From the NCBI GenBank assembly GCA_947568835.1, contig OX387608.1:6114001-6178000 (forward strand): a stretch of DNA of 64,000 bases, in the 5' to 3' direction. The notes beneath the pieces were generated by a model. That model did not search any database and was not told the origin of the DNA. It was given only the letters and a program-made list of their open reading frames with translations. The position numbers and the translations under genes were made by a program. This DNA comes from Protonemura montana (lineage: Eukaryota > Arthropoda > Insecta > Plecoptera > Nemouridae). Positions within the stretch are counted from its first letter, which is position 1, and each line of letters opens with the position of its first letter. Positions 6,624 to 60,653 of the stretch are shown here, piece after piece.

Positions 6624-7223
6624 GACTGTAGCAATGCTGGGGCAATCCTTGTGCTGGTATCTTCTCTCACAGGCTAGACTGTAGCAATGCAGGAGACAGT
6701 CCTTGTGCTGGTATCTTCTCTCACGGGCTAGACTGCAGCAATGCAAGAGACAGTCCTTGTGCTGGTATCTTCTCTCACGGGCTAGACTGTAGCAATGCAG
6801 GGGTCAGTCCTTGTGCTGGTATCTTCTCTCACGGGCTAGACTGTAGCAATGCAGGGGTAAGTACTTGTGCTGGTATCTTCTCTCACGGGCTAGACTGTAG
6901 CAATGCTAGGGACAGTCCTTGTGCTGGTATCTTCTCTCACGGGCTAGACTGTAGCAATGCAGGGGTCAGTCCTTGTGCTGGTATCTTCTCTCACGGGCTA
7001 GACTGTAGCAATGCTGGGGTCAGTCCTTGAGCTGGTATCGTCTCTCACAGGCTAGACTGTAGCAATGCAGGGGACAGTCCTTGTGCTGGTATCTTCCCTC
7101 ACGGGCTAGACTGTAGCAATGCAGTGGACAGTCCTTGTGCTGGTATCTTCTCTCACGGGCTAGACTGTAGCAATGCAGTGGACAGTCCTTGTGCTGGTAT
7201 CTTCTCTCACGGGCTAGACTGTA
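6624..7223. repeat. 54-bp minisatellite (family F), array 1
   Basis: Eleven units begin with GACTGTAGCAATGC-like sequence at 6624, 6677, 6731, 6785, 6839, 6893, 6947, 7001, 7055, 7109 and 7163, followed by a truncated unit at 7217. The spacing is 54 bp with one 53-bp unit. The core is CTTGTGCTGGTATCTTCTCT. Because 54 is a multiple of 3, the - strand stays open and gives an 18-residue repeat in places. That is best read as an artefact of the period. The same unit occurs inverted at 15661-15931. Confidence 0.95.
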
Positions 7224-14084: not shown

Positions 14085-14660
14085 ATCTAAAATTCGGATG
14101 TGCATTGTATGTATGTATGCAGTTTATTGTCCGGTATGATCAAGAAATAATGATTTACAGACAGTCCATTTTTTTTAAGCTTTTGCATTACATAATGAAT
14201 TCGCCCATAGGATGAAAACAAATTTTTAATAAAAAGTCATTCAACTTCGTTTTGAAACTAGATTCTTTCCCGGTGGCAAAGCATTGTACAGTTTTCGGCC
14301 GGCATATTTAGGAGCTTTTGATTTAAGTGTTAAAGTGTGCTTTGGCAGCACTAAAATACCCCATTTCTGGTGCAAGGTTGCTCCAAGTTGACTGGGGTCA
14401 CTGAGGTCATAGATTCCTAATTGTATATAAACATAATACAGTTTAAGACATGGAAAAGGCACGATTTGAATTTAAAAAAAAAGGGACGACAAGAGTTCTT
14501 ATAGAAAATCTCACTGCATGGATCGTGGCTTGCTCTCACCATTATCCACACCGCTTTTTTCTGGAGTTTAAATAATCTTGATGCTTTAGGTAAGTGTCCC
14601 CACACTGATACGCCATATTGCAGGTGAGAGTGGATGTAAGCAAAATACACCAACTTTACC
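14085..14660 (-). mobile_element. LINE 3' fragment (Jockey-like reverse transcriptase C-terminus), decayed
   Basis: Reading the - strand from 14653, the frame gives AYIHSHLQYGVSVWG, then LFKLQKKAVWIM. This matches the conserved C-terminal part of non-LTR reverse transcriptases (S-hydrophobic-YGI-x-WG, then LQKKAIR). A second frame from 14462 continues with KAPKYAGRKLYNALPPG, the conserved AG-x-K-L-Y-N-x-LP segment further downstream. The coding frame is therefore shifted once near 14420-14470. The expected order, RT thumb then C-terminal domain then short 3' UTR, is kept. Upstream RT catalytic motifs and ORF1 are absent, as in ordinary 5' truncation. The Jockey-like assignment is from memory of the motif and could be a related clade. 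Confidence 0.8.
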
Positions 14661-15660
14661 GCCCTTTTTATTAATTTTCAACAGTTTAAGGCGACGAATT
14701 CATAGAGCACAGAGTTTAAGTCAACCAAAAATACACTTATAAGTCAACAAACCCAGTTTTATTCAGTAATATTGACTGTCAAATGTTAAATTTCGAGATC
14801 ACTCGTCCCTCATGGCACCTTTACAAATATTTAATGACTAACACAATGCAATCGTGCAACATTCTAACACAATTCTAACACAGTGTCAACAAAAGGTAAT
14901 GATCCACGCGAGAAACTTGCAGGATAGAGAACTAAATTTGATTATGGCAAGGGCACAATAATTTAATTGACCATCCACTACGTCGAGTCTGCTGCAGGGG
15001 TGTGTCAAAAAGATTGGACCAGTCACAGCTTTCATTGGCAACCATCTATGTGGTCGTTTTTTTTTTGGCATGAATCAGGATTGAAAATTTGAGAAAACCG
15101 ATGCATTACACCAGCGCTGGTGGTGAATTGCTAGAAATTAATGGCGTACATTCTGGGCCGATGCCCCTTTAAAATGTTAACTCCCGAAAATTGACCAAAA
15201 ATTGTTGATTTATTAACAGGCGTTAAAGGAATTATAATCTAAAAGCTTTTAAAGTGTAAAAGGAGTGATTTACAGTTTCAATATTTGGTAGCGAAAGAGT
15301 TAGCCAGTCTTTTTTTACCCAAATGTATAAATGTGTCAAAACTAAACATTTAAATAGTGTGATATTTTTATGAGAGATTGTTTTCGTTTGCATGATAAAT
15401 AAAATTGGAGACGCTGAAAGTTCTTAGCGTTAATTTAAAGCCGCGAACAGAATAAATCTCTTAAAACATGTGCCCTGTACAAGTTTCTGTGCTCGTTTTC
15501 GACTTTTAATTTCACCCGCGGGAGCGTTTCGTGTCGGAAAAACTAAAAGTGCACTAATTTCGAAATCAGTTACGTGAATAAGTTTTCACTCAGATGCGAG
15601 TAAAAATATTGCATTATTTATATGACATTATTTTAAGATGGATTTCGCTTTGGGCGAAAC
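14661..15660. other. Unassigned sequence
   Basis: AT-rich, no family copy. A 61-codon frame on the - strand near 14886-15071 has no recognised domain. Confidence 0.5.
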
Positions 15661-15931
15661 AGTCTAGTCCGTGAGAGAAGATTCCAGCACAAGGACTGCT
15701 CCCCTGCATTGCTACAGTCTAGCCCGTGAGAGAAGATACCAGCACAAGGACTGCCCCTGCATTGCTACAGTCTAGCACGTGAGAGAAGATGGCAGCACAA
15801 GGACTGTCCTCTGCATTGCTACAGTCTAGCCCGTGAGAGAAGATACCAGCACAAGAACTGCCCCCAGCATTGCTACAGTCTAGCCCGTAAGAGAAGATAC
15901 CAGCACAAGGACTGCCCCACAGCATTGCTAC
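15661..15931. repeat. 54-bp minisatellite (family F), array 2, inverted
   Basis: Five units begin AGTCTAGCCCGTGAGAGAAG-like at 15661, 15716, 15769, 15823 and 15877 (periods 55, 53, 54, 54). This is the reverse complement of the array-1 unit: AGATACCAGCACAAGGACTG pairs with the array-1 core. Sequence outside the units does not obviously match the flanks of array 1. Confidence 0.95.
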
Positions 15932-17830: not shown

Positions 17831-18672
17831 CCATCTATCTGGTTTCAAACTACCAATAAAAACGTACTGAAATTGCTGAAATCAACTCAAATTAATCACA
17901 TCACTCTTATCTCTCACTACACAATCAGCAACTGCAAGCCGCAGCGGGTTGCACTACTAGTTACTAATAAAAAAACTGCAAGAGAGCGATGTATTGTGCA
18001 ATTTGTAAGATTTCTTGATAGTAACTTATCAGGTATTATCATGCAACTTTAGAAAACACAAAATGTTCCTTCCGCTATTTTCGTATCCAGGCGATGGTTA
18101 TTTAAGTTTTCAAAGTCTGTGGAGGAGCCGAGTTAGCTGATAATAGAGAAATTTGCAAAATTCGTAAATTTAAAGAAAACCTAAAGATAAATAGTCATAA
18201 AACCTAAAAACCAGAATAGAATCCTCTTTTTAAGTACAGAAATTTTTCAACACTTCACATAAACACGATAATAAAATTAAAAAAATGTAGTCTTCACTTT
18301 GATAACGAGTCAACGTAACAGCCGGTGTTGGGAAGGGGGTAGGGTGGGGGGGGGGAATCGATGTCTCTATGTGTTCCTCTGGTTTAATGGACCACGCTGA
18401 GAGCGAATAAAAGATGTCACGCCGATCGGGCGGTGGAAGCCAAGTGGATAAGTGAGCTTAATAATAGGCGGCCACAAATCACTCGACACGCTTTTATTAG
18501 GCGCAATGTGCCCGGGGAGTAATCAGGAAAAAAATAGGCGGGGGAAAAAAAGATTATGTATTTTCTAGATGACAGCTTTGTTGGAATAAATTATTTTAAT
18601 TGGAATGTTAATTGTGGTGAGATGAGAAAAGGGGGAGGGTGAATTTGGAGAAAGTGGTAAGTAATTGTTATA
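17831..18672. other. Unassigned sequence
   Basis: A G-rich run lies at 18328-18356 (GGGGTGGGGGGGGGGAA-like). 18360-18540 is GC-richer and appears single-copy in the window. No gene called. Confidence 0.45.
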
Positions 18673-18812
18673 GATTAACAACACTATATAACCGTCTCAA
18701 AAATTGATGTTTAAACGCGTTTGGGCATCAATTTTTGAGACGGTTATAGTGTTGTTAATAATTAAATTCCCCGCGTGTTGGAAGCGTTTGCAATTTAAAT
18801 AAGATTTCATCC
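18673..18812. repeat. Family B foldback element, core-less hairpin
   Basis: Left arm ATTAACAACACTATATAACC then GTCTCAAAAATTGATG; right arm CATCAATTTTTGAGACGGTT then ATAGTGTTGTTAATAA. The arms are near-perfect inverted repeats separated by only about 16 bases. The right side continues into the family edge GAAGCGTTTGCAATTTAAAT. The tRNA-like core present in other copies has been lost, or was never there. Confidence 0.85.
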
Positions 18813-19131
18813 TAATTGTAATAGAGTCCACGAGTGAAAAATGCGAGTAGGTGTGGAAATATTAAAAACTCAGGTGCATTGGGTTTTCAAGTTTTCAAGT
18901 GGCACTAAAGGAGGATTTTTGTTCGATTCGTGTTTATCTGTTTGGGTATCAACTTTTTAACCCGTTTTACCCCCAACCCTTCGCATTATAGAAACAACAG
19001 AAATATAATTTATACATGAATTAAAATATAATCAAATATAAATGATATCATATGATGAATTGCAATACATTCGACAATTCGAAGCCCAATCAATCAATTC
19101 TGACAGCTGAAATGTTTCAGAGGTAAATATT
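18813..19131. other. Unassigned AT-rich sequence
   Basis: Nothing recognised. Confidence 0.5.
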
Positions 19132-19995: not shown

Positions 19996-20288
19996 TGGTT
20001 TTTAGACTCATGTCTACTTCATCTAACTTTAGCACTAGTTTAAAAAAAAAAATTGTAAATTGGGGTTTGAATGCTAAGTAAAGAACAACAAATTTTCCCA
20101 ACGTTTCGTAACTTGTACCTGTTACTTTATCAAGGGTTAAAGCAGTTCTTGATAAAGTAACAGGTGCAAGTTACGGAACGTCAGGAAATTTAGTTGTTCT
20201 TCACTTAGCATTCAAAACCCAGTTTAAAAAGAGTTTATAAAAACTAGTGCCAAGGTCAGATAAAGTAGACATGAGTCTAAAAACCATA
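19996..20288. repeat. Family D, 292-bp near-perfect palindrome
   Basis: The left end TGGTTTTTAGACTCATGTCT is the reverse complement of the right end AGACATGAGTCTAAAAACCA. Inner blocks TGAATGCTAAGTAAAGAACA and TGTTCTTCACTTAGCATTCA, then TACCTGTTACTTTATCAAG and CTTGATAAAGTAACAGGTGC, pair throughout around an axis near 20140. This is a foldback (long-TIR) element with essentially no internal sequence. Partial copies lie at 1965, 8175, 13163, 27911, 60145 and 61055. Confidence 0.9.
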
Positions 20289-20862: not shown

Positions 20863-21285
20863 TGGTGTTTAACGACGCACTGTTTTGACAAAAAGTCTTG
20901 TGGCACTGGTCTAATGGCGTCGGTAAATAAATGGATGATGATGATGAATATGATAAACCTAACCTAGCCTAGAAGGTAGGACAGAAACTCGATGCCGGCA
21001 CGAAGCGCATCATTAGGACCTCCGGCGTAACATCCCTTCCGAATCACGGTTTGTTGAGGCACTGACGACTGCTAAGCAAGGTGAGTAAAGCAGTTGTACC
21101 AACTTGTATCCATCCAACCTATCTCCCGAACAGAACTTGATCATGTGTATGATGGCCAGCAATCCAATACCTAACCCAGCGCAGTGTTGCTTAACTTCGG
21201 TGATCTCACTATAACCGGTGTTTCCAACACGCCAAACCGTTCGGTGGTCACCCATCCAATACCTGACACAGCGCAGAAAAACTCT
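20863..21285 (-). repeat. Family A SINE, copy with 5S-derived head
   Basis: From left to right (antisense): GTGTTTAACGACGCACTGTT tail end, body blocks, then CAGTGTTGCTTAACTTCGG and ACGCCAAACCGTTCGGTGG. The last blocks are reverse complements of 5S rRNA segments (GAAGTTAAGC and the TTGGATGGGTGACC region). A second partial 5S unit follows (CACCCATCCAATACCTGACA). An antisense 80-codon frame over the head is not a gene. Confidence 0.85.
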
Positions 21286-23499: not shown

Positions 23500-24033
23500 T
23501 TTCTATCGAGGAAACATTGCAAGATTTGGCAATTATTGAATACTAGGGCTTTGAGTCGCGTTGTAGATGAGCGTAATTATATTACTTCTTGTTACTCCAC
23601 TTTACAGCCCTATAAGATACAGCGACTTAAAGTTTACCCTTGTGTTACTCACCATAAGAGAGAACCAAAAAGAGACCCACTTTCCAGCCCGATTAGATAT
23701 ATAAGATATAGAGATTTCTTCTATATTACTTCATTTTTCTTTGGTTAGGGGTACCTATCCCTCATTATTTTTTCGGTTCTTTAATTTAACAAATACTTTT
23801 TCAAATGCTTTCTGTCAACATTTTTAAATGGAAACTATTTCAATCTTAGAATGTGTGTAGTTATTTAAATCTTTATTTTCAACAAAATCATGAAGCCGAT
23901 AAATTTAATAAACGTGGCTGCTCCAAGTTCACAACATTTCTAAGGTGCCCTGCAAACTTCAACTAAATCGGTCAAACCATTGGGCCGATAAAGAAAAAAT
24001 CACAAATCATAAATAACCAAACAATGAGTAACT
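23500..24033. other. Unassigned sequence
   Basis: No family copy. A 92-codon frame on the + strand (23470-23748) begins in the family E fragment and has no recognised domain. Confidence 0.45.
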
Positions 24034-24035
24034 TA

Positions 24036-24237
24036 GGATGAAATCTTATTTGAATAGCAAACGCCATTAATAGGTATTTTATTATTAACAACACTATAAC
24101 CGTCTCAAAAATTTATGCCTAAACGCGGACTCGAACCCTGATCTCCACCTATCGTGGGTGTTGCTCTGAACCATTGAGCTACTTGGACACTGGCTTTAGG
24201 AGACGATTTTAGTGTATTTGATGAGAATGTCAGTTCT
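24036..24237 (-). repeat. Family B element with tRNA-like core
   Basis: Edge GATGAAATCTTATTTGAATA, then GGTATTTTATTATTAACAAC and ACTATAACCGTCTCAAAAAT. A tRNA-like core follows in antisense (24119-24190): box B GGACTCGAACCCTGATCTCC and box A GCTCTGAACCATTGAGCTA. Then GAGACGATTTTAGTGTATTT follows. The right terminal arm is not recognisable. The core lacks the T at anticodon-loop position 33, so it is not a tRNA gene. Confidence 0.75.
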
Positions 24238-24747
24238 CCAAGGAGTATCTTTATCCCCGGGAAGCAAATTGAGCCTTCACTCGCTACGCACAGCGGGGGT
24301 GCAGACATCCATGCAGTCAAAGTGCAAGATAAACCCTTGTGAACGCTTTCTTAATCCTTAATCTGGCATCGGATTTACTGTCTTGAGAAGCACAGCGATT
24401 CTGAGAAGGAGCGACGACGCAGTACCTTCTGTCATCGTGCGTTGGAACGCCGACCTACTCCTGTATACACAAACCCAGTTCTGAGAGAAAATACCTCGAG
24501 TGTGACAAGCTAGTTTCCTAACGCAAACTATAATAATGTGTAGCAAACTATCAAAAGCGTTGTCAAGACTTCTGTGGTAACAGCCAATCTTAATTTCGTT
24601 GACAAATACTCTGGATTTAACTCATTTATGTAGTACTGATACCCGTGAAATACTGGTATCCGTGAGCCAAACGTTTCAAAACAGGTCTTATGTTAGCTCC
24701 TCATTTGGATAAAAACGTATGTAAATGATAGAGTGGGTTATTTGGTG
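24238..24747. other. Unassigned sequence
   Basis: The segment after the family B copy (24238-24340) may be unassigned internal element sequence. Only ATGAGAATG...TCTCCAAG is shared with the 40744 copy. Confidence 0.4.
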
Positions 24748-25926: not shown

Positions 25927-26260
25927 CAGAGTCCCGGCGCTAATGTGTTACATCGGAGTTGACAAGCCGGCAAGACGTAGTACCGGTGGTGACCACCCGA
26001 TGGCGCTTGAGGCCGTACTTTTTAACATATATCTCTGCGATTAAATAATTATAAATCAAAATATCGGTGCATGTTTATCAATCGTTGAGGTTAGCATTAA
26101 AAAAAAGAGTAATTGTGAATAAGCTCTCTCAAATAAGTGTAATCTGAGAGAAATAACGAATTGAAAGTGGAAACGATGGTAACTCCATCTCTAGTCTACC
26201 TCAATTTTCGTCGGTACAGTAGCTATTTTTCAGGAAGGCAGTTTAACATTAGCGCTGAAA
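25927..26260 (+). repeat. Family E TIR element
   Basis: Left end GTCCCGGCGCTAATGTGTTA, then CCCGATGGCGCTTGAGGCCG, TATCAATCGTTGAGGTTAGC, a TCTGAGAGAAATAACGAATT-like block and AACTCCATCTCTAG. The right end is GTTTAACATTAGCGCTG. The same blocks in the same order occur at 35443, 44199 and 50136. It is a non-autonomous DNA element with inverted ends. Confidence 0.75.
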
Positions 26261-27697: not shown

Positions 27698-28050
27698 CGC
27701 GGATCAAGTATAGTGCGTGCATTGCTAGCTTACCACAAAACTAGATAACTCATTTTTATATTGCATGTCGCATACAAAAATTTTTAGATATTTCCATAAC
27801 TTTTCCTATCGTGCAATAGTTTATTGTTTCAAAATTGGTACTTTTAATATTTTAAGTGAGTCTATTGTCCCTACTTTAAAAGGTCTTAGGGTAACAAAAG
27901 TTTGGGACATTATGGTTTTTAGACTCATGTCTACTTCATCTTACTTTAGCACAAGTTTTGACAAACGGGTTTTGAATGCTAAGTGAAGAACAACTAAATT
28001 TCCAAACTTTTCGTAACTTCCTGTAACTTCAAGTGTTAAAGCAGTCCTGA
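27698..28050 (+). repeat. Second copy of the 19727 repeat plus family D left arm
   Basis: 27698-27910 matches 19727-19995 block by block. From 27911, TATGGTTTTTAGACTCATGT then GAATGCTAAGTGAAGAACAA and a TGTTAAAGCAGTCCT-like block give the left arm of family D. The right arm is missing, so the palindrome is reduced to half. Confidence 0.75.
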
Positions 28051-30064: not shown

Positions 30065-30108
30065 TCCTAAGGCATGCATTTGTGGACTAACCCATCCTAA
30101 CGTAGAAT

Positions 30109-30146
30109 AACCTAACCTAACCTAACCTAATCCTAACCTAACCTAG
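30109..30146. repeat. Interstitial CCTAA (TTAGG-type) array
   Basis: About seven CCTAA units (CCTAACCTAACCTAACCTAA, then TCCTAACCTAACCTA). TTAGG is the canonical arthropod telomere unit. Such short arrays can also arise from the AACCTAACCTAGCC word within the family A body. Confidence 0.7.
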
Positions 30147-30553
30147 ACTTAACGAAGAGACAGAACGTGGTAGTCAAGATTTTTTAAACCTTGCCTCACC
30201 TATAAGGCAACGGGCACTGTTTGAAGCTAGCTTTTTAAAACATGAAAGAAAATGCAAATCAATTTCTTTACTGATAGTGATAATTAACTGCTTTCTTAGT
30301 GGGTGTCAAGGCGAAGAATTCTGAAGTTTTAAGTTTTTCTTGTAACTCACGTAGTTTAGGGCATTTAGGTGTGCCGGTAATGTGCAAAAGTCACCGACAA
30401 ATAAATTTTATCAATGCCAAGTCTCATTTCACATGGCAAAGCAAAGGAAACTAGTAAAACAGAATGAGTCTTAGGGGTCTACCAACTCAGAGACGATTTA
30501 ACCTCACGATTTCAAACGACTTATTCCGTCTTAAAAATTGCATTTCATATTGG
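30147..30553. other. Unassigned sequence
   Basis: Nothing recognised. Confidence 0.5.
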
Positions 30554-30835
30554 GATGAAATCTTCTTTAAATTGCAAACGCTTGCAATGCGCGGGGTATT
30601 TTATTATTAACAACACTATAACCGTCTCATTAAATACACTAAAATCGTCTCAAAATGCGAGTGTCCAAATAGCTCAATGGTTTAGAGCAACACCCGCGAT
30701 AGGTGGAGATCAGGGTTCGAGTCCCCGTTTGGGCCGGCCATTTTTGAGACGGTTATAGTGTTGTTAATAATAAAATACCCTTGCATTTCTTAGATTGTTA
30801 TTATTTTATGGTTCAACGAGCAATGTGGCGTATGT
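30554..30835 (+). repeat. Family B foldback element with tRNA-like core
   Basis: Left edge GATGAAATCTTCTTTAAATT, then TTGCAAACGCTTGCAATGCG and TATTATTAACAACACTATAA. The tRNA-like core at 30661-30735 carries TAGCTCAATGGTTTAGAGC (box A) and GGGTTCGAGTCCCCG (box B). The right arm is TTTTTGAGACGGTTATAGTG then TTGTTAATAATAAAATACC. The right arm is the near-perfect inverse of the inner left arm (about 35 bp). Beyond it comes GGTTCAACGAGCAATGTGGC, shared with the 33520 copy. Open frames over the core are incidental. Confidence 0.85.
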
Positions 30836-31562
30836 CATCGGTTATGATGTAGCTATTTTTTCAGTTCACTGTTGGCCCCCAGAATGACCGGAAAAACCAG
30901 AAAAGAATTTTCTCCCATTGAACGAAGTCTAGTCAAGCTCCATACGTTCACAATTTATTTTACACCCCACTTTAAGCTTCAACATCTTTGTGTCAGTGGC
31001 TTGAATGTCCAGAGAGTATGTGTACATTGGCATGTATTATCGGCCATCAGGTTTGAACATGTTGAAAGATGTGGACATTCACACGTGTTGGTTTTATTTT
31101 AGTTTTAGTTTTATTATTATTATGCTAAAAAGGACCGTACAGACTTTTAGCTGCAATACTACAAGTTTAAAAGATTTTGATTTATCGTAAGTATTCAGAT
31201 AAAACACATGTGCAGAGTAGCCCAAAAGCGAAGATCAAAAATAAACATTGTTTTTCTCCTCGTTTTGGCGACCATACGCGTTCAACAGAAAGAAAACAGA
31301 AAATAAAAAAAGACACCCGAAGAGAATGAGCAAAGACGTAAAAATAATAGTGATATTTTTAATAATTCAACCGAATAGACTGCTCAGTCACGAATAATAA
31401 ATCGGCGGGCGTCGGGCGTCAGGCGTCGCCTTGGTGAAAAAGCGTCGGTCCATAGTGTTGCCGTGTAGCTTATCTATCGCCATGATCTTTCGCGAGACGC
31501 CTACTTGATCACGAGTCGCGCAGCTCTCGCTTATCAAGCTAACGAACGAAATTTAAAACACA
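30836..31562. other. Unassigned sequence with a GCGTCG patch
   Basis: 31403-31440 is another GGCGTCGGGCGTC-type patch. No gene recognised. Confidence 0.45.
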
Positions 31563-31740
31563 TTTGTGATGTTTAACGACGCGTTTTTTAACACCGGGTT
31601 ATGTGGCTCTGGTTAAAAGTCGGTGGTTAATAGGTGAGGACAAACGTTTTCTAGCCTAGAAGTGAGAGAGCGATGCCGGAACAACTAGAAAAGCAAAATT
31701 AGTTCATTAACCCTTGCTGTAGAGAGGTTAGTACTAAATA
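31563..31740 (-). repeat. Family A SINE, strongly degenerate
   Basis: GTGATGTTTAACGACGCGTT, GTTATGTGGCTCTGG, TTTTCTAGCCTAGAAGTGAG and CTGTAGAGAGGTTAG follow the antisense order of the family with many changes and gaps. It is an old copy. Confidence 0.6.
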
Positions 31741-31964
31741 TTAGCTCACGTCTGACAGCACTGGATCCTCTTTATCAAAATAATTTTCCTGCACTTTCCA
31801 ACTCAAACTAAAATGAAAAGCTGACTATTAATTATTTTGTAAGATAGTCTCTCAAAATAGATGTAAGACATATTCGAGGTCATGAGAATCACCAATGAAT
31901 TGTTTGAGTGCTGTTTGGTCGATCATTTCTTATCCTGAAAGTACTACGTATTCCCTTTACAGCA

Positions 31965-32163
31965 GCTGATCCCAAGTACCGAAGTTAAGCAACACTGCAC
32001 TGGGTCAGGTATTGGATGGGTGACCACCGAACGGTTTGGCGTGTTGGAAACACCGGTCCTCGTGAGACCACTGACGTTAAGCAACACTGCGGTATATCAT
32101 ATATTGGATGGATGACCAAAGTATTCATGTCCAGTTGTGTCTGGGAGAGAGGCTGGAGAGATA
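31965..32163 (+). repeat. Family A 5S-derived dimeric head plus start of body
   Basis: CCGAAGTTAAGCAACACTGC, then TATTGGATGGGTGACCACC, then GTTGGAAACACCGGTCCTCG. A second GTTAAGCAACACTGCGG and TTGGATGGATGACC follow, then the body start CTGGGAGAGAGGCTGGAG. The first unit holds close 5S box A, intermediate and box C counterparts. This is the clearest sense-strand view that the head is a duplicated 5S rRNA. Confidence 0.88.
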
Positions 32164-33517
32164 ACAAATCAATTTCAATCGGTAATGTTTGTTGGGTAAA
32201 ACAAGGGGTCTCACACCAATTTTAGAAAGGTATCTCATTAAGCCAAAGAAGTCATGAAGAAGTCGAGAAGAATTCAAGAGACATATTAACAAGAAAACAT
32301 GCATCAAGTAGGCCTAGATCTTACGTCTGACGAAACTACCATATGGCGTGTAGGGGGAGGGGGAGGGAGGCTTAAAACGACGCTTCGCGACGCCTGAAAA
32401 ATCGACGCCTACATTCCTGGCCTGGGAATAGTTGTGTCTAGTTGCAGTTATGAGCGCATGGATTATTTGATTGCCAAGAAGAAGCAGCCCGTGAGTCTGT
32501 ACTTCTATAAAATAGCTGAAAGTACTGAGATGTTCTGACAGAAGCTACATAGCGGCTATGTTTGATAGTAATAGAGGATAGGAATTACCAGAAATGTGCC
32601 ATAGCTGAAAAACTTATTATTTTAACGGTAATGACTTATTATATTTGCTCGTTAGACGCCTGGTTATTTAAATTTAACAAGACATGATTTAGAATCTGAC
32701 GACGACGATGTGAGAAATGTTAAAGAAAATTCCGATTTTCACAGACATAATCGTGAAAGCTTGTGTAAGTTGGAATTAAAAATATATATAATAATAATGC
32801 ATGGTGATTTCTTTGGTAACTAATTTGTTTATTCTCATTTCAAAATAGAAAAAAAAATTAGTAAATTATATGAAAAAAAAACATCTTACTGGCGCACAGA
32901 TTTGAAGACCTTCCAAATAGCCAGGAATGTTCGCTTTATCTATTCTTAGGTAAATGACACTTACCCTCCTACACTGGGTAACCTTCAAAATATTCGCTCT
33001 AAAGGACAAACGGTAAATAAACGACGGGTTTGCAAGAAAAAAAAACGACAAAAACAAAAAACTTAGGTTAAAAACGGCGCCCTCGGAAATGCTTCCAAAA
33101 CATCTTGAAACAGTAAAGTTTGGCCGTTTGGCTGCGTGGCTGTTTTAGTAAAATTAAAAGGCCATGTCTTTAAGATGGTAAAACGTTAATTGGCCATAAG
33201 ATTGGGTTATTCATTCTGAAATTGCCTCAGCGCAGCTTGTTTACATGGTTTTATCGCTAAGTTTATGATAATGCGGGGGAGAATTAATAGACGCCCACGG
33301 CAGAATAGGGTCGACAAAATATGCTCAGGATTCATTTGATTTGGCATGTTTAGCATATTCTACAAATTAGCAATCGATTTTTTTTCGGTTTTGATTTCTT
33401 ATGGATATTGCAAACCGTCCCTTAGTAAGTTAACAATAAAACTCAGAAAAAGCAAAATAAACAAAAAACGCTGAAGTTTCTAGGGTTTTTTTTAATTGTA
33501 TATAAAAGTGTTTAAGG
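32164..33517. other. Unassigned sequence
   Basis: G-rich run at 32350-32370 and a small GACGCTTCGCGACGCC patch at 32375-32412. No gene recognised. Confidence 0.45.
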
Positions 33518-33519
33518 CC

Positions 33520-33828
33520 TACCCGTTATTTTATTATTATCAATACTATAACCGTCTAAAAAATTAATGCCCAAACGTGGCATTCTCATTAAATACACTA
33601 AATTCGTCTTAAAAAGTCAGTGTCCAAGTAGCTCAATGGGTTAGAGCGACACCCGCGATAGATGGAGATCGGAGTTTGAGTCCCCGTATGGGCATCAATT
33701 TTTGAGACGGTTACTGTGTTGATAATAATAAAATACCATTGCATTTCATAGATTGTTATTATTTTATGGTTCAACGAGCAATGTGGCGTATTGCAAGCGT
33801 TTGCAATTTAAATCAGATTTCACCTAAA
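33520..33828 (+). repeat. Family B foldback element with tRNA-like core, complete
   Basis: Left arm TTATTTTATTATTATCAATA and CTATAACCGTCTAAAAAATT; tRNA-like core 33619-33692 (TAGCTCAATGGGTTAGAGC and GAGTTTGAGTCCCCG). The right arm is CATCAATTTTTGAGACGGTT then GTGTTGATAATAATAAAATA, then GGTTCAACGAGCAATGTGG, and the outer edge is ATTGCAAGCGTTTGCAATTT and AAATCAGATTTCACC. The outer edge equals the inverse of the left edge seen at 30554 and 40744. Confidence 0.85.
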
Positions 33829-33909
33829 GGCGTAACCTTTAGTTCACCTGTGTGTAAATAGAATTTTACATGGCTTCAGCGAAATATCGAGCGACAATAA
33901 TTATAATTA

Positions 33910-34135
33910 AAATTAACCTAGCATCGAAGGGAGGGCAATCTCGGCCCCACATGACCTATAATTTCCCCAGTTGTTGGATAAGTGGAAAAGCTCAACCCCG
34001 ACAACTTCATTACTGAAAAGAACTAGCCATCTATAATGGTGGTCACCCATCTAAAAACTGGGTGAACACAATGTTGCTTAACTTCAGTGTTCTAACGAGA
34101 ACCGTTATTACTTAACACGGCAAACCGTTCGGTCA
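33910..34135 (-). repeat. Family A SINE, degenerate, with 5S-derived head
   Basis: AACCTAGCATCGAAGGGAGG (body), then GGTGGTCACCCATCTAAAAA, ATGTTGCTTAACTTCAGTG and GGCAAACCGTTCGGTCA (antisense 5S head). Much of the body is deleted. Confidence 0.65.
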
Positions 34136-34639
34136 TTATATCTCACCGACAGCAGAAAAACTACGAGCAGCCTAGCAAACAATACCTTTAAAGCTTTCAG
34201 TGACTTTAAAACCGTAGGCAGGGTCTATTTGTACGGGTAACAAGACAAAAAAACTGTCGAAATCATACCGCCAATGACGTTACAAATACGTCACTAACTG
34301 TTTAGATAAGTTTCTTCCCCAGTTTTGAGAGTGACGCATCGCTAAAACATTAAAATTGCATCTAAAACAATCTAAAAATAGTCCGTTACGTTGCCGAAGA
34401 TATCGGGCCCTGACTTTGTAGAGGGATGAGAGGAAGGGGAGGTGTGGAGGGGAGTTCCACTCATTCATGAACATGGCCGACATGTTTATAAATCTGTAGC
34501 CTAATTGGGTGAATATTTACCACGCGACATCAAAAGGGTGGCCATTTTGAGATGTGAGAAGGTTGATTTCTTTAATAATAACCTTAAAGACATGTCTTAG
34601 TTGAGGTTACTACCCTTAAAGTGGGGAATAGTTCAAAAC
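34136..34639. other. Unassigned sequence
   Basis: Nothing recognised. Confidence 0.5.
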
Positions 34640-34925
34640 TACGGCTTTTAATACAGCTTGGTACGGCGACAATCCAATCCACCAATCCATAAGTATTGAC
34701 AATCAAGATTTTTAAGACAAACTGGCATGGCGACAGAATCAATCCATAAGTATTGACAACCAAGGTTTTTATGGTAAACTGACACTGGCATGAATCCGCA
34801 AGTATTGGCAATCCAAAAATATTCGCAACCACGGTTCCTTACACAGATTGAAAAGGCGATAATTCAATCCACAAATCCGCAAGTATTGACAACAACGATA
34901 TTTAAGGCAAATTGGCAAGGCGACG
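34640..34925. repeat. Degenerate tandem repeat, about 60-75 bp units
   Basis: The phrases AATCCATAAGTATTGACAA or AATCCGCAAGTATTGACAA recur at about 34685, 34740, 34794 and 34864. They alternate with TTTTTAAGACAAACTGGCAT and TATTTAAGGCAAATTGGCAA-type blocks and GGCGACAAT. Units vary in length. Antisense open frames over it are repetitive, not a known protein. Confidence 0.75.
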
Positions 34926-35442
34926 AAACGTGGATTGGGACCATATCGTGGGTATAGTGCTTTCAGATGGTCACAACAATGGAGTATTTGACATTCCAAA
35001 AAATCTGAAAAAAAATAAAATCGTTTATACAATTGGCTAGCGGCAAATCGCTTTGCTCAGCGCCGAAAGAAATATCGATGCTATTTCCGAATCTTTAGAT
35101 AGTTAGTCGTTGCCACTGAGACGAACAGGTGCTGAAGACACAATCATCTTTAGCAGTTGGTAAGAGAGTCTGTTTTTGTTTCTTTCACTTTGATGGCTTT
35201 TTTTATTAGAAGTTTCATCACCTTTGGCCGCGACCAACAGAATATCGCCGTCAAATAAGATTGAGAAATCAAGTGTTTTGTGGGAACGGCAAGTGATCTT
35301 AGGGTAAAAGAATTTAAAGATTGATCGGGGTGAGAGTCTACGAAAAAGAGAGGAATGCCAGACAGACAAAAGAGTTGGTATAAATAGAATATTTTGGATT
35401 GAAAGAGAATGTGATTCTCGGTGAACAATCTCAAGTTCAACT
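34926..35442. other. Unassigned sequence with antisense open frame
   Basis: Two overlapping - strand frames (120 and 96 codons in 35103-35465) are rich in hydrophobic and Ser residues and have no recognised domain. Confidence 0.4.
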
Positions 35443-35749
35443 CGTAGTAACGATGATGACCACAAGATGGCGCTTGCGGCCGTATTTTGTTAACAAACCT
35501 CTACAATTAAATAATTACGGTTCTAAATATCGATACATTTCGATCAATCGTTGAGGTTAGCATTAATACAGATAAATTGAGAGAAAACCAGTAATAAATG
35601 TGAGTAATCTGCGATAACGAAATTAAGTTTTGTAACATTTGAAAAGACGGTGGCTCCATCTCTAAGCGACCACCATTTCTGTCGGTAAAGTAGTTATCGG
35701 TCGGTAATTTTCGTAAAATGACAGTTTAAAATCAGCGCTGTGACTCTGA
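35443..35749 (+). repeat. Family E TIR element
   Basis: AAGATGGCGCTTGCGGCCGT, AATATCGATACATTTCGATC, AATCGTTGAGGTTAGCATTA, TGTGAGTAATCTGCGATAAC, GACGGTGGCTCCATCTCTAA. The right end is AGTTTAAAATCAGCGCTG then CTCTGA. The left terminal repeat is not recognisable. Confidence 0.75.
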
Positions 35750-36947
35750 CTTAACCAGAAACTCAATGCCGTTACAATACAAACACCGAGAAAAGCTCAA
35801 AGAAAGTTGAGAAAAGATTGCGGATTGTCTGTCGTTACAGCTAAATCAAATTGCATAAATATTTGACATTGGTTTGCAGAATGAATGGGAAAAAAACAGA
35901 ATCTAGCAAAGGGTTGTGGTCTATTTTTTCTTCGTGTTGAATTTTCAAGTTTCTAGCTAGACGCACTGAGAAGAAAAGTACAGAGGGTCCATTGAATTCA
36001 AGACTGCCGGACGAAACGATTTCACAGAAGAAAATTTTCAATTCAAAAGCTGCTGCAAACAACAAACACTTAGTAATGCTAAGAAATTGAAAGAAAATAA
36101 TCATAAATAAAAAAAATGTGTGCACATTTTGCGCTCGAAAATATCGCCTTGAGTCTTTAGATTATTATTTTCAGATGCGCAGAATGTCTTAATCAACATA
36201 CAAGGGGACATATATGAGTTATAATTACTGTATACAATGAAAGATTTATCATTTTTACTTTGAATATATGAGACCAATCCAAATAAAAAATTCCAACACC
36301 GAAATAATAAATTACGTTTTTAGACCTATTTTTACTGTCATCGTATATGATTTAAGATTCCATATCCTCTCCGTAAAAAAAAAACAAAGAAAATACAATT
36401 TCCCATCCCTGCTGTCACTGTAAAACGTAACTGTCAAATTTTAAGCCTCCATTTGAAACTTGCCCTCACTAACATTCCCCCGAACGGTCGCGTAAGACTC
36501 CTTGCTTGCTTTAGAAATTCCTCCGACTGCACATACGCACAACGGACATAAAATTCGGTCGCTATTTCCCGGTGATTTAAAGCAAACATAAAAACTCTGC
36601 ACAACCATACTAACAACGTGAAAACATAAATAACCAATGCAATTTCTTCAGACATTTCGATGCGTTTTACCGTAGCCAAATGGTAGCAAACATATTTAAC
36701 TATTACAGCCCAGTTTCTTCCAATTGACAACTGTAGAATTGTACAGCAGGAATTCAAATTCCTTCTTTTTGCTGTTCATACTTTAGTTACTGCAGCGCCA
36801 CCACAGAAATTCGATTGATCAGTAAAATAAAGAATTATGAGTGTCACATTATTGGACAGCACCATTAAAATTTGGTTATCTTTCATTTAAAAATGAAAAC
36901 TACAACTGGCTATGTGTTTCGTTAGAATATGCTATTGGATTTCACAC
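35750..36947. other. Unassigned; antisense open frame of 107 codons
   Basis: The - strand frame 36757-36434 has a strongly hydrophobic segment (IALVIYVFTLLVWLCRVFMF) followed by a charged and aromatic tail. This could be the end of a membrane protein exon or chance. No family is recognised and no splice acceptor was settled. Confidence 0.3.
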
Positions 36948-37342
36948 ACTGATTTCAAATAACCTGCATAGAGCATAGGATCCAGCCAGCTGATCTCAAA
37001 CATCCTGGATAGAGCATAGAATCCTGCCAGCTGATCTCAAATAACCTGGATAGAGCATAGGATCCAGCCAGCTGGTCTAAAATAACCTGGATAGAGCATA
37101 GGATCCAGCCAGCTGATCTCAAATAACCTGGATAGAGCATAGGATCCAGCCAGCTGATCTCAAATAACCTGGATAGAGCATAGGATCCAGCCAGCTGATC
37201 TCAAACAACCTGGATAGAGCATAGGATCCAGCCAGCTGATCTCAAATAACCTGGATAGAGCATAGGATCCAGCCAGCTGGTCTAAAATAACCTGGATAGA
37301 GCATAGGATCCAGATAGCTGATCTCAAATAACCTATATTATA
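36948..37342. repeat. 41-bp minisatellite, nine full units
   Basis: Units AACCTGGATAGAGCATAGGA-TCCAGCCAGCTGATCTCAAA-T start at 36961, 37002, 37043, 37084, 37125, 37166, 37207, 37248 and 37289, with a partial at 37330. The spacing is 41 bp every time and differences are few (for example TGGTCTAA in two units). Because 41 is not a multiple of 3, three antisense frames cycle through the same repeat. It is not coding. Confidence 0.97.
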
Positions 37343-37745
37343 CAAGCTCAGACTCTCACTAAGCCTATGTACTAAATTTTACACCGTAATTTTAATGTGG
37401 TCGGCCATTTTAACCATACCGATGAAGCAATCGCAAGAGCAGACGATGGGCGCACCCGAAACCGTAAAACCGTTGGGTCTTTACTCGTAACAGATGCTCT
37501 CTAGTGGGCGAGATGAACCGTTTGAAAGGTCAGTAATGAAATGCACCGAGTGCATTTTGCAACATGCTTTGTGTGTGTTTGCATTTTGGTAGGAAGTGCA
37601 TTCTAGCTGAGGCGGGGGCGTTACGAGATGAGTCAAACGGAATGCAGTTGTTAAAGTTCGCCATATCCCAGTGACTCAATTGTGAAGAGGAAAATTGGTT
37701 GGGAAATTTTGGAAAAGTTGGCCTCGAGGCCAAGGCACAATCACA
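37343..37745. other. Unassigned sequence
   Basis: A moderately GC-rich stretch (37400-37640) with TGCATTT/GTGCATT repeats at 37540-37600. Nothing recognised. Confidence 0.45.
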
Positions 37746-37879
37746 GAGCAGAGTTTAGGCTCAACCCCCATACATTTTGGGATAAAGTTGTTATCATGAT
37801 GGTAACAATCTCTGGAAATTTGGAAAAACAGCCCGTGATTGGCTGATCATTTTTTAACTCCTGGGATTAACTTCTGCTC
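37746..37879 (+). repeat. Family G TIR element, complete 134-bp copy
   Basis: Ends GAGCAGAGTTTAGGCTC and GATTAACTTCTGCTC are inverted repeats. Internal blocks GATAAAGTTGTTATCATGAT, GGTAACAATCTCTGGAAATT and GTGATTGGCTGATCATTTTT match the other copies. It is the reference copy for the family. Confidence 0.8.
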
Positions 37880-39454
37880 AGCTTTGTTTTACCGGCCTCT
37901 GAAACTAGCAAGCGGTTGTGCATTTCTTAAGGGCGTCGAAAACTGATATTGGTAAAGTAAAATCACAGAATTTTTACAAAACATCGGAAAAATTTAGAAG
38001 ATTTTCACAAAAATCACGGTTTTTTGAAAACTTGTGTAAAATAAAGTGATTTAAAAGTCCATAAATGTAAAAAAAAATAGCCATAAATTTGAATCGAATC
38101 ACCTGTTTTCAATCCAATAAACCAGTTGAAAAATGAAGACGTGCCCAAGGAGGTCTTCACAGTCGACTGACCGCTCTGAGATGGATCGGTGGAGACGATG
38201 ATGAATCTCCGCGAGGGTCGCGACGCGGGAAACCAACGTGTTAGCCAAAGTAGCATACTTAAATAATCTAATAACGGCCGGCTATTTGGAAAGGTCTAGC
38301 TCATTTATGTGTCAACTGTCTCATTAAATCATTAATTTTTAAAAATTATGCTGCCACTGAGATTTTAATTTCGGACAGCTATGTGGTTGAGTTCTAAAGA
38401 AATTCGTGCTGATTTGATAATAGTTTCAAATAAAAAAAATAAAAATTGATATTTGTCCAATCGAATTTCAATCAACATATATACCTTTAAATAACGACAG
38501 CTCATTTAAAATACTTTTAAACTATTTTATATTTTTAATAATTTCTTAAAAGTTGAATATATATTAAAATATATTTGGAGTAGGCACGACAAGGGTGCAA
38601 ATATCAATAACGTAACTAAACAAAAAAAGACTGGAAACTTCTCCAGAAAATTGGATTAAAACTGACTTACAAAGTATTTTCCTGGTACGACTTGAGGAAG
38701 CGTTGTGAAGGAAAAAAAGTGGGTGGGCGCCAATTGTAAGGGAAATATATGAGTGAAGATTTGTCAATTTTTTTTGTAGGGAATGGAGAGTAAGATTTTA
38801 CTTAAAATTACGAATCTTGTCTGGAATTTTTGTTATTAATATCGCTACTGTAAGAAAACTCAAAAACAATCTTGAACATAACAATTCCCCATTGATTTAA
38901 AAGATTCATCCCGGTATTTCGAACTCTCGAGAAACCGCCAGCATCACTCCTCCTTCGTCGAAACGGGTGACAGGATTGCTTACACTTCTAACTTCAAGGA
39001 CAATGCACAGCTATTTATTTACACAATACGTAAATAGCTGCCAGTTACCACCGCTGGTTTGTGGGTCAGCCAAGATTTCTGTTCTTAAATGCACCAGTTT
39101 TTCTAAACAATAATATGTCGCTCGCGAAGACACCGCAGTCTTCTTCGTCCGCGACACACAAAACAAGCAAAACTTCAAGGATTTTTCCATTTTAAGATTC
39201 TTAGCCAACAAGATTTGCAATAGATGGACAAAAAAAAGCAACGGATATTTGTGAACGATGGTAACGACATTACTCATCATTTGTTACGTCTTCGCATCCT
39301 CATTAGTTAAAATGTCATGACTTGAAAATTTCATTTCCAAATAATTGGGACACACAACTTTCAATAAATAAACATTTTTTTCTACACCATGGTTTAGATC
39401 CTACGTAATTACGTAAACATTCAAAAAAGTTATCGTTTTGATATGATTATTGAT
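37880..39454. other. Unassigned sequence
   Basis: The motif GAAACTAGCAAGCGGTTG at 37908 resembles the family C edge. 38300-38560 is very AT-rich. An 89-codon antisense frame at 39011-39280 has no recognised domain. Confidence 0.45.
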
Positions 39455-39775
39455 TTATTATTGTGTTTCACGACGCACTGTTTTGACAACGTGCCCTGTG
39501 GCACTTGTCTAATGGCGTCGGAGAATGAAAAAATGATCATGAACCTTACCTAGCCTAGAAGGGAGGAGGGGAAACCCGATGCCGGCACGTAGCCTACTCC
39601 TGTCGAAGAGCACCAAGGCCATCGGCTAAACGTCCCTTCCGAAGGACGGTACAACGCGAACAGCAGGATTCCTCTACAAATCCATGCTGTCGAGAGGTTA
39701 ATAAGCAAGGCAAATGAGTTGCTGTACTAACTTTCATCCCTCCAACCTCTCTCCCAAACTGAACTGGTCAATATT
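39455..39775 (-). repeat. Family A SINE body copy
   Basis: TGTGTTTCACGACGCACTGT, GGCACTTGTCTAATGGCGTC, GGAAACCCGATGCCGGCACG, AACGTCCCTTCCGAAGGACG, CATCCCTCCAACCTCTCTCC. It is well preserved and lacks the 5S head. Confidence 0.9.
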
Positions 39776-40743
39776 TTAACCCCTAGCTCTAAGATTTAAC
39801 GATATGCGATTGAAGGCGATTGAAAAGGTTTTGATTAGGTTTTGTCAAGAATGGTATCATTGCAGGTGCTAGGCATGGCAAGAATAAATTTAGTACACAA
39901 TAGAAATCAATTGTTTAATTGATCTATGAAAACAATTGAAATCTATTGAATTAAAACTTTTACTGTCGCAATTAACAATAATCCCCATCAAAAACAGCAG
40001 TACCTATCTGTGCAAATAAAAGGCGAATGCTTATTTGATTTTTGAGAGACAAGTTTAAATTTTAAATCATTAAACAAATTAAGATATTCCTGAATACATT
40101 GCACAAATTTTCTAAAAATCAAAACTGTTTTCGTGATGGAAATACAGAATCTTTACTTGGATGCTGCTAAGCCTACGACCGACGCCACCAAGGGATAAAG
40201 AAAAAGAAAATTACCGAAAAAAATATGCTAAGAAAGCCTAAAAAGAAAGCAGGCAGCCAACTCGACGGAAGATGAAGCCAAAATTGTGTCTCTACCCATA
40301 CAAAAAAAAAAATAATAATAATAAATTTATGTCTTTCCTATAAATTCTTAGACGTCCAAAGAGCATCACTCGCCCACCAGTCATGACCACGCTAATAATT
40401 TCCCCTCCGATCGACGCCACGCAACGACGCCCGACGGCGCGACGTCGTCCATGCGTCACATCTACCTGTTGCACGCGTCGATGAGGTCGCCGCGACGCTG
40501 AAAGGGATGCGTCAGAAGGGCAACGTCATGGCCGAACATGCCATGACCATCACGCACCTGTCCTGATCTACACCTCATCGCCGAGCAGACTATTTTTAGA
40601 AGTATGTTTAACGACGTTGTTGTTCTCTGGTTTAACGACGTTCTTGACACTGGGATGTGTGGCTTTGACCTTTAAGCGCAAGTGATTTATTGAGGTTTAT
40701 GAACATTTGATTGATTACAAAAAAAAAAAGATTTTAGATTATG
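39776..40743. other. Unassigned sequence with a GCGTCG patch
   Basis: 40395-40520 is a GACGCCACGCAACGACGCCC-type patch. At 40627-40670, GTTTAACGACGTTCTTGACA resembles a family A tail end. No gene recognised. Confidence 0.45.
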
Positions 40744-41118
40744 TAAAATCTGATTAAAATTGCAAACGCTTGCAATGCGCGGGGTATTTCATTATTAATA
40801 ACACTAATAACCTCTCAAAAATTGATGCCTAAACGGGGACCTGAACCCCGATCTCCACCTGTCGCGGGTGTTGCTCTAACCATTGAGCTACTTGGACACA
40901 TAATTTTTGAGGGGATTTTAGTGCATTTGATGAGAATGACGGATCTCCAAGTCGTAGAACCAAGAGGCTGTGAATACTCACAGCCAGTAGTACATAAACA
41001 ACCTGGTATCCAAAATAAATTAAGAAAAACTGACTGTGAATACTCACAGCCAGTAGTGTTCCTAATAGTAAAAATAACCCGCGCATTGCAAGCGTTTGCA
41101 ATTTAAATAAGATTTCAC
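40744..41118 (-). repeat. Family B foldback element, longest complete copy
   Basis: Left edge AATCTGATTAAAATTGCAAA then CGCTTGCAATGCGCGGGGTA; right edge CCGCGCATTGCAAGCGTTTG then CAATTTAAATAAGATTTCA. These outer edges pair over roughly 40-45 bp. The tRNA-like core is antisense at 40827-40901 (box B GGACCTGAACCCCGATCTCC, box A GCTCTAACCATTGAGCTA). The interior additionally holds a duplicated 24-bp hairpin word (40968-40991 and 41034-41057). An open frame of 94 codons across it is incidental. Confidence 0.88.
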
Positions 41119-42652: not shown

Positions 42653-43242
42653 CAGAGTTTCCAACAAGCCAAACTGTTCGGTGGTCATCAATAACAGAAC
42701 CAGAGCAGTATTGCCTAACTTCGGTGATCTCACGAGGACCGGTGTTTTCGACACACCAAACCGTTGGGTGGTCATCCATCCACTACCTGATTCAGCGCAG
42801 TGTTGCTTAACGGTGTTTCCAACACGCCAAACCGTTCGGTGGTCATCCATCCAATACCTGATCCAGCGCAGTGTTGCTTAACTTCGGTGTTTCCAACATG
42901 CCAAACCGTTTGGTGGTCATCCATCCAATACTGGACCCAGCGCAGTGCTGCTTAACTTCGGTGATCTCACGAGGACCGGCGTTTTCGACACGCCAAACCG
43001 TTGGGTGGTCATCCATCCACTACCTGATTCAGCGCAGTGTTGCTTAACGGTGTTTCCAACACGCCAAACCGTTTGGTGGTCATCCATCCAATACTGGACC
43101 CAGCGCAGTGCTGCTTAACTTCGGTGATCTCACGAGGACCGGCGTTTTCGACACGCCAAACTGTTCAGTGGTCATCCATCCAATACCTGACCCTGATCGC
43201 AGTGTTGCTTAACGGTGTTTCCAACAAACCAAACCTTTCAAT
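42653..43242 (-). repeat. Tandem array of seven 5S-rRNA-derived units (family A head)
   Basis: Units begin GTGTTTCCAACACGCCAAAC-like (antisense) at about 42655, 42742, 42811, 42886, 42979, 43048 and 43141, with a partial at 43215. Full units of about 87-93 bp contain CACCCATCCAATACCTGA-like, CAGTGTTGCTTAACTTCGG and ATCTCACGAGGACCG. Alternating 69-74-bp units lack the ATCTCACGAGGACC part. The 42886-42978/42979-43047 and 43048-43140/43141-43214 pairs repeat as a dimer of about 162 bp. No SINE body is attached. The open frames on both strands are by-products. Confidence 0.92.
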
Positions 43243-44198: not shown

Positions 44199-44568
44199 TC
44201 AGAGAACCAGCGTTGATTTTAAACTTGCTGCTGAGCAAACGAGCTGGCAACACGTGGTAATGGTAGATGCCATACGATGGCGCTTGAGGCCGTGCTTTTC
44301 TAAAAACCTTTAAAATTAAATGATCGCGACTCAAAATGTCAACACATGTTTATCAATTGTTGAGGTTAGCATTAAAATAAATATTAATTGAGTGTAAGCC
44401 AGTCTAAAATGCGAGTAATCTGCGAGAAATAACGAATTACAATTTCGTACCACTCGAAACGACGGTGACTCCATCTAGTAACAACTACCATTTTAATCTG
44501 TAAAGTAGTCAATTGGAGGCCATTTATTTTGTTGCGAAAACAGTTTAGCATAAGCGCTGGCCCTCTGA
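44199..44568 (+). repeat. Family E TIR element, complete 370-bp copy
   Basis: Left end TCAGAGAACCAGCGTTGATT and right end AAGCGCTGGCCCTCTGA are inverted repeats. Internal order: ACGATGGCGCTTGAGGCCGT, TGTTTATCAATTGTTGAGGT, TGCGAGTAATCTGCGAGAAA, GACGGTGACTCCATCTAG. No open frame of note, so it is non-autonomous. I see no convincing target-site duplication. Confidence 0.8.
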
Positions 44569-49420: not shown

Positions 49421-49618
49421 TGATTCCTCCACAAATCCACACTGACGAGAGTTTGATAACCAAGGCAATATGATGACTTTTACCCTCCCAACTTTTCTCC
49501 CTAACAAAACGGGTCTTGTGTATGGTGGTCACCCATCCAATACCTGACCCAGCGCAGTATTGCTTAACTTCGGCGATCTCATAAGAACCGGTGTTTCCAA
49601 CACGCCAAACCGCTCCGT
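49421..49618 (-). repeat. Family A SINE, 5' half with 5S-derived head
   Basis: TGATTCCTCCACAAATCCAC, then GTCACCCATCCAATACCTGA, CAGTATTGCTTAACTTCGGC and CAACACGCCAAACCGCTCCG. The 3' half of the body is absent. Confidence 0.85.
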
Positions 49619-50135: not shown

Positions 50136-50470
50136 TCAGAGGGCAGCGTTAATGTTAAGCTTACTGAGCAAACGAGCTGTTAGTACGTGGTAATGGTAGG
50201 CGCCTCCCGATGGCGCTTGCGACCGTCCTTTTTAACAAAATTTATAAAATTACATAATAACGCCTCAAAATATCGATACATGTACATCAATCGTTGAGGT
50301 CAGCATCAATACAGATGAATTACGTGTAAACCAGTCTTAAATGCGAGTAATCTGTGAAAAATGAAATATCTTAAGACGCGACGGTGTGTCCACCTCGAAG
50401 CATCCTCCATTTTAGTCGGTAAGTTGGCGGCTATTTTTCGCGAAAACGGTTTTAACATTAGCGCTATGGT
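50136..50470 (+). repeat. Family E TIR element
   Basis: TCAGAGGGCAGCGTTAATGT, CTGAGCAAACGAGCTGTTAG, TCCCGATGGCGCTTGCGACC, TCAATCGTTGAGGTCAGCAT and, at the right end, GTTTTAACATTAGCGCT. It is almost complete; only the last few terminal bases diverge. Confidence 0.78.
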
Positions 50471-59965: not shown

Positions 59966-60514
59966 TCAAAATTATGTAATACTCTCGTCTTACCTATTAC
60001 GTTAATTAAGAAATAGATAGCGGCCTATGTCAATATCAATTAGTTGGCGTCAGTTCAAGCAATTATATTAGCTAGTTACACAAATACATTAAGGAACATA
60101 TCGAATTGAACGATCAAATAGCAAATGTAATGATAGTATGTGATATTTTTTAGACTCGTGTTTGCTTTATTTAAACCAGGACTGGTTTTGGAAAAAAAAT
60201 GTTTAAAATTGGGTTTTGAATGCTAAGAAAAGAACAACTAATGTTTCCCCTAATCTATCAACACTGCCGAACTACACATAAAAGAAAATATCAGAGCCAA
60301 CCATTTTAAAAAGACTCCCTTATGTCCCTAATGTCTCCTAAAACTTATTTTTTTAGTTGGGGAAACAGTTTATACGACCCCCAATTAAAGAATAAAACAT
60401 ATGATTTTGTTCCCTGGACCTCTTTAATGCCTGTCTCCGCATAGATAGGTGTACTCCCGAACTATCAGTTTCAAGTATCAGGAATCGGTAAATTTACTTC
60501 AAAAAGTGCCTGTG
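59966..60514. other. Unassigned sequence with a family D fragment
   Basis: 60145-60250 carries a diverged left arm of family D (TTTTTTAGACTCGTGTTTGC, GGTTTTGAATGCTAAGAAAA, GAACAACTAATGTTTCCCC). The rest is unassigned. Confidence 0.6.
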
Positions 60515-60653
60515 GATCTTTTATTATTAGAAACACTAAAAACCTCACAAAAATTGATGCCCAAACGGGGATCAATGTTTTGAGAGGTTAATGGTGTTCT
60601 TTATAGTAAAATACCCCGCGCATTGCAAGCGTTTGCAATTTAAATCAGATTTC
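60515..60653. repeat. Family B foldback element, core deleted
   Basis: TTTTATTATTAGAAACACTA, CTCACAAAAATTGATGCCCA, then ATCAATGTTTTGAGAGGTTA and TAAAATACCCCGCGCATTGC, ending in AAGCGTTTGCAATTTAAATC and AGATTTC. The arms meet at AACGGGG, where a tRNA-like core sits in other copies. Confidence 0.8.

Follow-up and report, generated by a model that had tools for sequence, protein, structure and literature searches.

Overlapping inverted segments in a candidate SINE-like repeat family with a tRNA-like head in Protonemura montana

The stretch analyzed in this work, hereafter the window, comprises 64,000 nucleotides (nt) of the genome of Protonemura montana (assembly GCA_947568835.1, contig OX387608.1, positions 6,114,001 to 6,178,000 of the forward strand) and harbors a short dispersed repeat family in which a tRNA-like block is combined with inverted arms. 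An earlier note on this DNA had placed six copies near positions 18673, 24036, 30554, 33520, 40744, and 60515; all of them were found and are named here A to F in that order. These six copies from a single window constitute the whole sample, no relatives having been found outside it; exact-pattern scans of viral and prokaryotic contigs gave no further copies, although exact matching in such collections says little. Copies were mapped on a ruler, the 197-nt core of copy E, composed of a leader (1-43), the tRNA-like block (44-114), an arm termed T (115-158), and a 3' tail termed X (159-197), that is, modules of about 43, 71, 44, and 40 nt. Strands are given as read toward the constant 3' end, and edges are accurate to about 3 nt. 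The window looks eukaryotic, judging by its tandem arrays, dispersed and 5S-like repeats, and a longest open frame of 197 codons; none of 10 flanking reading frames gave a Pfam match above the cut-off.

The layout of the copies, expressed in unit positions of the ruler, differed among loci. Copy B (24036-24238, minus strand) was a plain unit made of one forward piece (3-195; leader, block at 24116-24188, T, and X) without a long inverted arm; its direct repeat was used to set the 5' edge, the homology reaching 24229. Copy C (30550-30780, minus strand) presented an inverted segment 159-6 (T', antisense tRNA-like block, and leader) followed by forward T and X (124-195), with its block at 30663-30735 on the plus strand. 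Copy D (33524-33824, plus strand; homology from 33527) consisted of inverted 156-103, forward 3-158 with the block at 33622-33694, a 48-nt insert, and X (161-195). Copy E (40744-41117, minus strand) contained inverted 195-135 (X' with part of T'), an unrelated stretch of 113 nt, and forward 1-197, with the block at 40826-40897. The two remaining copies were hairpins lacking the core, as had been described for 18673 and 60515, yet both retained the last 9-13 nt of the block at their tip. Copy A (18675-18812, plus strand; inverted 147-106, then forward 106-195) had no leader and kept just the final 9 nt of the block; copy F (60516-60656, plus strand) was formed by inverted 159-102 and forward 112-195, its homology starting at 60514, 2 nt inside its direct repeat. 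Long inverted arms, attributed by the note to all six copies, were therefore present in five, the copy at 24036 having a single tail whose inverted partner is the short diverged leader; the combination of a tRNA-like core with inverted arms was confirmed for the family. In the unexplained middle part of copy E, a stretch of 24 nt was exactly duplicated at 40968-40991 and 41034-41057.

In these five copies the inverted segment preceded the forward one and overlapped it, by 42 nt in A, 36 in C, 54 in D, 61 in E, and 48 in F. All five junctions between inverted and forward segments were different (106/106 in A, 6/124 in C, 103/3 in D, 135/1 in E, and 102/112 in F), with 5 and 4 nt common to both sides of the junction in C and F, respectively, and none in A and D. 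The outer ends nearly coincided in C (159), D (156), and F (159), to within 3 nt, and the inner ends lay within 4 nt of each other in A (106), D (103), and F (102). X occurred at both termini solely in copy E (one of six), so that terminal inverted repeats like those of miniature inverted-repeat transposable elements (MITEs) were not a property of all copies; the arms were unequal, with X on one side, in four of the five copies with a long inverted arm.

Inverted pairs of exactly matching 20-mers within 400 nt were obtained at three copies of the family (from 18687, 30594, and 40757), whereas among 20 first-order Markov sequences of the length of the window 19 had none and one had a single pair. 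Among the 60 listed of the 64 pairs in the window, those outside the family corresponded to an AT run at 14050 and to a separate palindrome at 19996. Folds were predicted for copy A (-55.4 kcal/mol, z -9.5), copy C (-86.8 kcal/mol, z -8.7, with an outer stem of 36 bp), and copy D (z -5.6); by comparison, the plain unit B gave only a weak hairpin (z -1.6). In inverted orientation the leader proved related to T, with 70-86% over 22-43 nt when compared with the ruler, both elements pairing at 17, 19, 16, and 17 out of 20 positions in B, C, D, and E, respectively. Covariation between leader and T was not supported in these copies: 86.3% of the cells paired, changes on both sides occurred in one of 20 pairs, and this was equaled by 121 of 500 shuffles. 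Selection on a leader/T stem through compensatory evolution thus found no support, as shuffles did as well.

The tRNA-like block announced for four copies scored above the Rfam tRNA cut-off of 29 bits in all of them (30.4 in B, 42.8 in C, 30.5 in D, and 39.8 in E). ARAGORN detected three of the four blocks, that of copy C included, each as Ser(CGA), an isotype that is tentative because a long variable arm is missing from the block. As for the clear A and B boxes expected from the note, the A box consensus appeared in the four blocks, but the exact B box GGTTCGAGTCC only in those at 24036 and 30554, the other two differing from it by two mismatches each; the exact string TAGCTCAATGGTTTAGAGC occurred in one of the four (30554). 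A run of five T residues (T5) started 4-5 nt past the Rfam match in every block-bearing copy. Such a run is a likely stop for RNA polymerase III (Pol III); ordinary Pol III transcription is therefore doubtful, and with it the palindromic transcript from its own Pol III promoter that had been proposed. The start of copy B lies 50 nt upstream of its block. Judging from these features, the mobile RNA, which would include T and X, probably does not arise by simple Pol III transcription from the internal promoter, and we infer read-through or transcription by RNA polymerase II.

The forward segment ended in AGATTTC plus 3-7 nt, followed by the direct repeat, in A, B, C, D, and F, and in a variant end in E. 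Direct repeats were identical at 12 of 13 positions in copy A (18662-18674 and 18813-18825), 11 of 13 in copy B (within 24239-24253 and 24022-24035), 11 of 12 in copy C, and 9 of 9 in copy F (TGCCTGTGG at 60507-60515 and 60657-60665). Tested at the edges of homology against 3000 random pairs from the window, repeats yielded P values of 0.007 (A), 0.023 (B), 0.010 (C), 0.023 (D), and 0.012 (F), five of the eight tests thus giving 0.025 or less. An anchored test, whose edges had been tuned on the repeats themselves, placed copies A, B, C, and F between 0.004 and 0.019, D at 0.06, and E at 0.12; its summed score was matched by 0 of 20000 random sets. One pair of repeats enclosed both the inverted and the forward part at 18673, 30554, and 60515 (A, C, and F) and, weakly, at 33520 (D); this was not the case in B, which has no inversion, nor in E. 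Both arms therefore arrived in one event in A, C, and F, and the arms behave mostly as one unit. Target-primed retroposition of long and short interspersed nuclear elements (LINEs and SINEs) characteristically leaves an invariant 3' end and flanking direct repeats whose length varies. The note had taken a variable 5' end together with an A-rich tail as the signature of a SINE; the 5' starts did differ, but the 3' end was a fixed sequence other than A.

The explanation that we prefer, to which we attach roughly even chances, is that the family is a non-autonomous, SINE-like retroposon with a tRNA-like head, mobilized by a LINE, whose insertions are often inverted at the 5' side. Insertion would start by target-primed reverse transcription from X, where a small predicted stem-loop, present in the folds of copies C and D, could be recognized by a LINE reverse transcriptase. 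During the same insertion a second complementary DNA (cDNA) would be laid in the opposite direction over T, and further in copy C, starting from near the T/X boundary; its source would be a second RNA or the first cDNA folding back on itself. Joining of both cDNAs, possibly through the 5 shared nt in C and the 4 in F, would produce a 5'-inverted insertion able to form a hairpin. The leader, as a diverged inverted relative of T, could be the fossil of an earlier round of inversion. The overlap of inverted and forward fragments calls for a second RNA, fold-back of the cDNA, or a source RNA that is itself a hairpin.

Several observations weigh against LINE-mediated insertion with 5' inversion. 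The sample is of six copies, and the partner LINE was not found, a query with the tail giving no match outside the six copies in the window (E < 0.5). The X of copy A folded alone formed no stem-loop. The T5 run should halt Pol III before T and X. The direct repeat of copy E was not significant, either as a whole (P = 0.175) or as two pieces (P = 0.45 and 0.88). The overlap between segments is unlike ordinary twin priming, and the proportion of inverted copies, four or five of six, is far above primate reports on SINEs. To these points must be added the comparison of whole arms. The arms of copy F were 79% alike to each other and 83 and 86% like the forward arm of E, and those of copy D were 87% alike to each other and 89 and 91% like the arm of B. 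Within A and within C arms were 100% alike, and so were the left arm of A and the right arm of C, and the right arm of C and the arm of B. Whole-arm identity hence does not favor copying within a copy, and the coinciding outer (C, D, and F) and inner (A, D, and F) ends are explained at least as well by a hairpin source of fixed form.

Such a source is the strongest competitor, which we consider possible and clearly less probable than even. According to it, a one-time inversion created an active source RNA of the form T'-r'-leader-tRNA-T-X, r' being the antisense 3' end of the tRNA-like block, which then spread by retroposition; B and E would represent the parental form, A and F would have lost the center of the palindrome, and C would have had its center flipped. 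The shared arm ends, the large proportion of inverted copies, and arms that overall are no closer within than between copies are all in its favor. The junctions nonetheless differ in A, C, D, and F, copy C requires a flip plus a deletion, and some variants track the copy in which they occur. Thus, TTGAT was present in both arms of copy D and from none of the nine remaining T arms could it be recovered, and copy F had in each of its arms two changes in common with the forward arm of E that were absent from all seven T arms of A to D. These private variants of D and of the E/F type would be signs of arm copying within a copy, although gene conversion from arm to arm could mimic them. On balance, copying of the inverted arm at each insertion is weakly favored over the hairpin source. 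In an extended version, which we consider rather unlikely, a hairpin RNA would propagate and have its inverted arm recopied from its own tail at each insertion, in such a way that the palindrome renews itself, the leader derives from an older round, and the family persists as a source of double-stranded RNA despite the Pol III stop.

It is improbable that the family is a MITE or foldback DNA transposon which captured a tRNA or a SINE and is moved by a transposase, the DNA alternative raised in the note. Inverted arms do flank a core, copy E has X at each end, and there are precedents, in the cited parts of the sources, for SINEs carried in other elements, namely MER6 (PMC6887750) and Metulj subfamily 3 in nMar-16_Hm (PMC4016481). 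However, X was one-sided in five of the six copies, which share a single constant 3' end and differ in their 5' starts, and the direct repeats, in the 9-13 bp range, measured 9 bp in F, 12 in C, and 13 in both A and B, a variability at odds with the fixed-length duplication of a MITE. LINE-type retroposition fits better because repeat lengths vary and X is two-ended just in E, and the transposon was set aside on these two grounds. Independent adjacent insertions of 5'-truncated units in opposite orientation are very unlikely for the family, one repeat pair enclosing both arms in A, C, and F with segments that abut or share 4-5 nt, but two neighboring insertions, the circumstance named in the note as contrary to a single unit, may account for the arms of copy E at 40744 and for no other copy, its parts being 113 unrelated nt apart with a direct repeat significant for neither the whole nor the parts.

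Direct repeats of SINEs vary in length, as they do in the present family. Compared with known systems, the family resembles tRNA-derived SINEs such as Metulj of Heliconius, as the cited part of PMC4016481 describes it, in its tRNA-like head, its A and B boxes, and its short non-coding unit; it departs from them in having inverted arms in five of six copies, T5 4-5 nt after the block, and a start, in B, about 50 nt upstream. Inversions of the 5' side are attributed to twin priming in L1, and the cited portion of PMC2912911 gives 639 inverted insertions of 2068 human- and chimpanzee-specific L1 elements, in contrast with 1 of 5554 for Alu and 4 of 477 for SVA. Like twin-primed L1 in the portions cited (PMC2912911, PMC2837659), our copies hold an inverted 5' and a forward 3' segment within one repeat pair, with nucleotides shared at the junction in C and F. 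The usual twin-primed form, in the excerpt of PMC2837659 used here, comprises two inverted fragments plus an internal deletion; instead of non-overlapping parts with an internal piece missing, the parts overlap in all five copies, by 36-61 nt, and the template is SINE-like, for which such inversion is very rare in primates, at least in the figures quoted. That excerpt also postulates dual priming, offered without proof as another possible origin of L1 insertions headed by poly(T). Two RNAs primed on both target strands could give the overlap and the X at both ends of E, whereas copies C, D, and F have no X at the outer end. MER6 (PMC6887750) and Metulj subfamily 3 (PMC4016481) share with our family a SINE sequence inside a second type of element, but MER6, in the cited part of its description, has terminal inverted repeats of 24 bp and a TA duplication, and neither fixed terminal repeats nor a fixed duplication occurs here. 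Retro-DNAs, in the cited excerpt of PMC11195612, are likewise unusual sequences that move through target-primed reverse transcription and have longer target duplications; unlike the present family, they derive from DNA transposons, without terminal inverted repeats and with poly(A) tails. Among the papers listed in a literature search that did not extend to most subscription papers, none named a foldback or hairpin SINE, inverted SINE copies, or a tRNA-containing MITE, and we make no claim that the family is unpublished.

If confirmed genome-wide, these repeats would make 5' inversion a frequent event, instead of a very rare one, in a SINE-like family, and the overlapping halves could not be explained without a second RNA, a cDNA copied from itself, or a source RNA in hairpin form. 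The copies would then be a natural record of second-strand events during LINE-type insertion, and RNA interference might act on their hairpins, such as that of C with its outer stem of 36 bp. They would also call for caution in automated annotation, where inverted arms could get copies filed as MITEs.

The insert of copy D, termed Z (33738-33791, plus strand), recurs in the right flank of copy C (30781-30833; BLAST gave 98% over 53 nt, from 33739). Z begins with the target repeat of copy C (ATTGCATTTCATA at 30537-30549 and 33738-33750; CTTGCATTTCTTA at 30780-30792), directly follows the same end of T in copy D, and overlaps with its final 6 nt the X match that starts at 33786. Copy D keeps the usual GGGCATCAAT start of T and the leader CATTC, both absent from C, and the two loci are about 3 kb apart; DNA-level gene conversion between them is therefore no less probable than a 3' transduction from C, with flanking DNA carried in the RNA.

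Other repeats were found in the window. Three 5S rRNA-like sequences exceeded the Rfam cut-off (21124-21245, 42891-43005, and 49503-49618, minus strand); at least that at 21124 adjoins a repeated body (families D3-D10), and they may belong to a 5S-headed SINE family, a type of element described in moths in the cited part of PMC8010984. The palindrome at 19996-20286 is large and MITE-like, with arms of 139 nt, 85% complementary, and a 13-nt loop; parts of its arm recur at 27899-28019 and near 1992, 13150, 21284, 60202, and 61044. An open frame at 14420-14677 (minus strand), without a Pfam match, resembles what we take to be the end of a LINE reverse transcriptase. The run of about seven (TAACC)n units at 30108-30145 corresponds to the arthropod telomere unit. 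One 54-bp tandem repeat formed two arrays in opposite orientation, about 8.4 kb apart (6623-7223 and 15659-15931), and another, of 41 bp and 9.4 copies, occupied 36949-37334. Finally, a dispersed repeat (families D11 and D14) was present in four plus-strand copies at 25954-26124, 35421-35590, 44231-44399, and 50164-50333.

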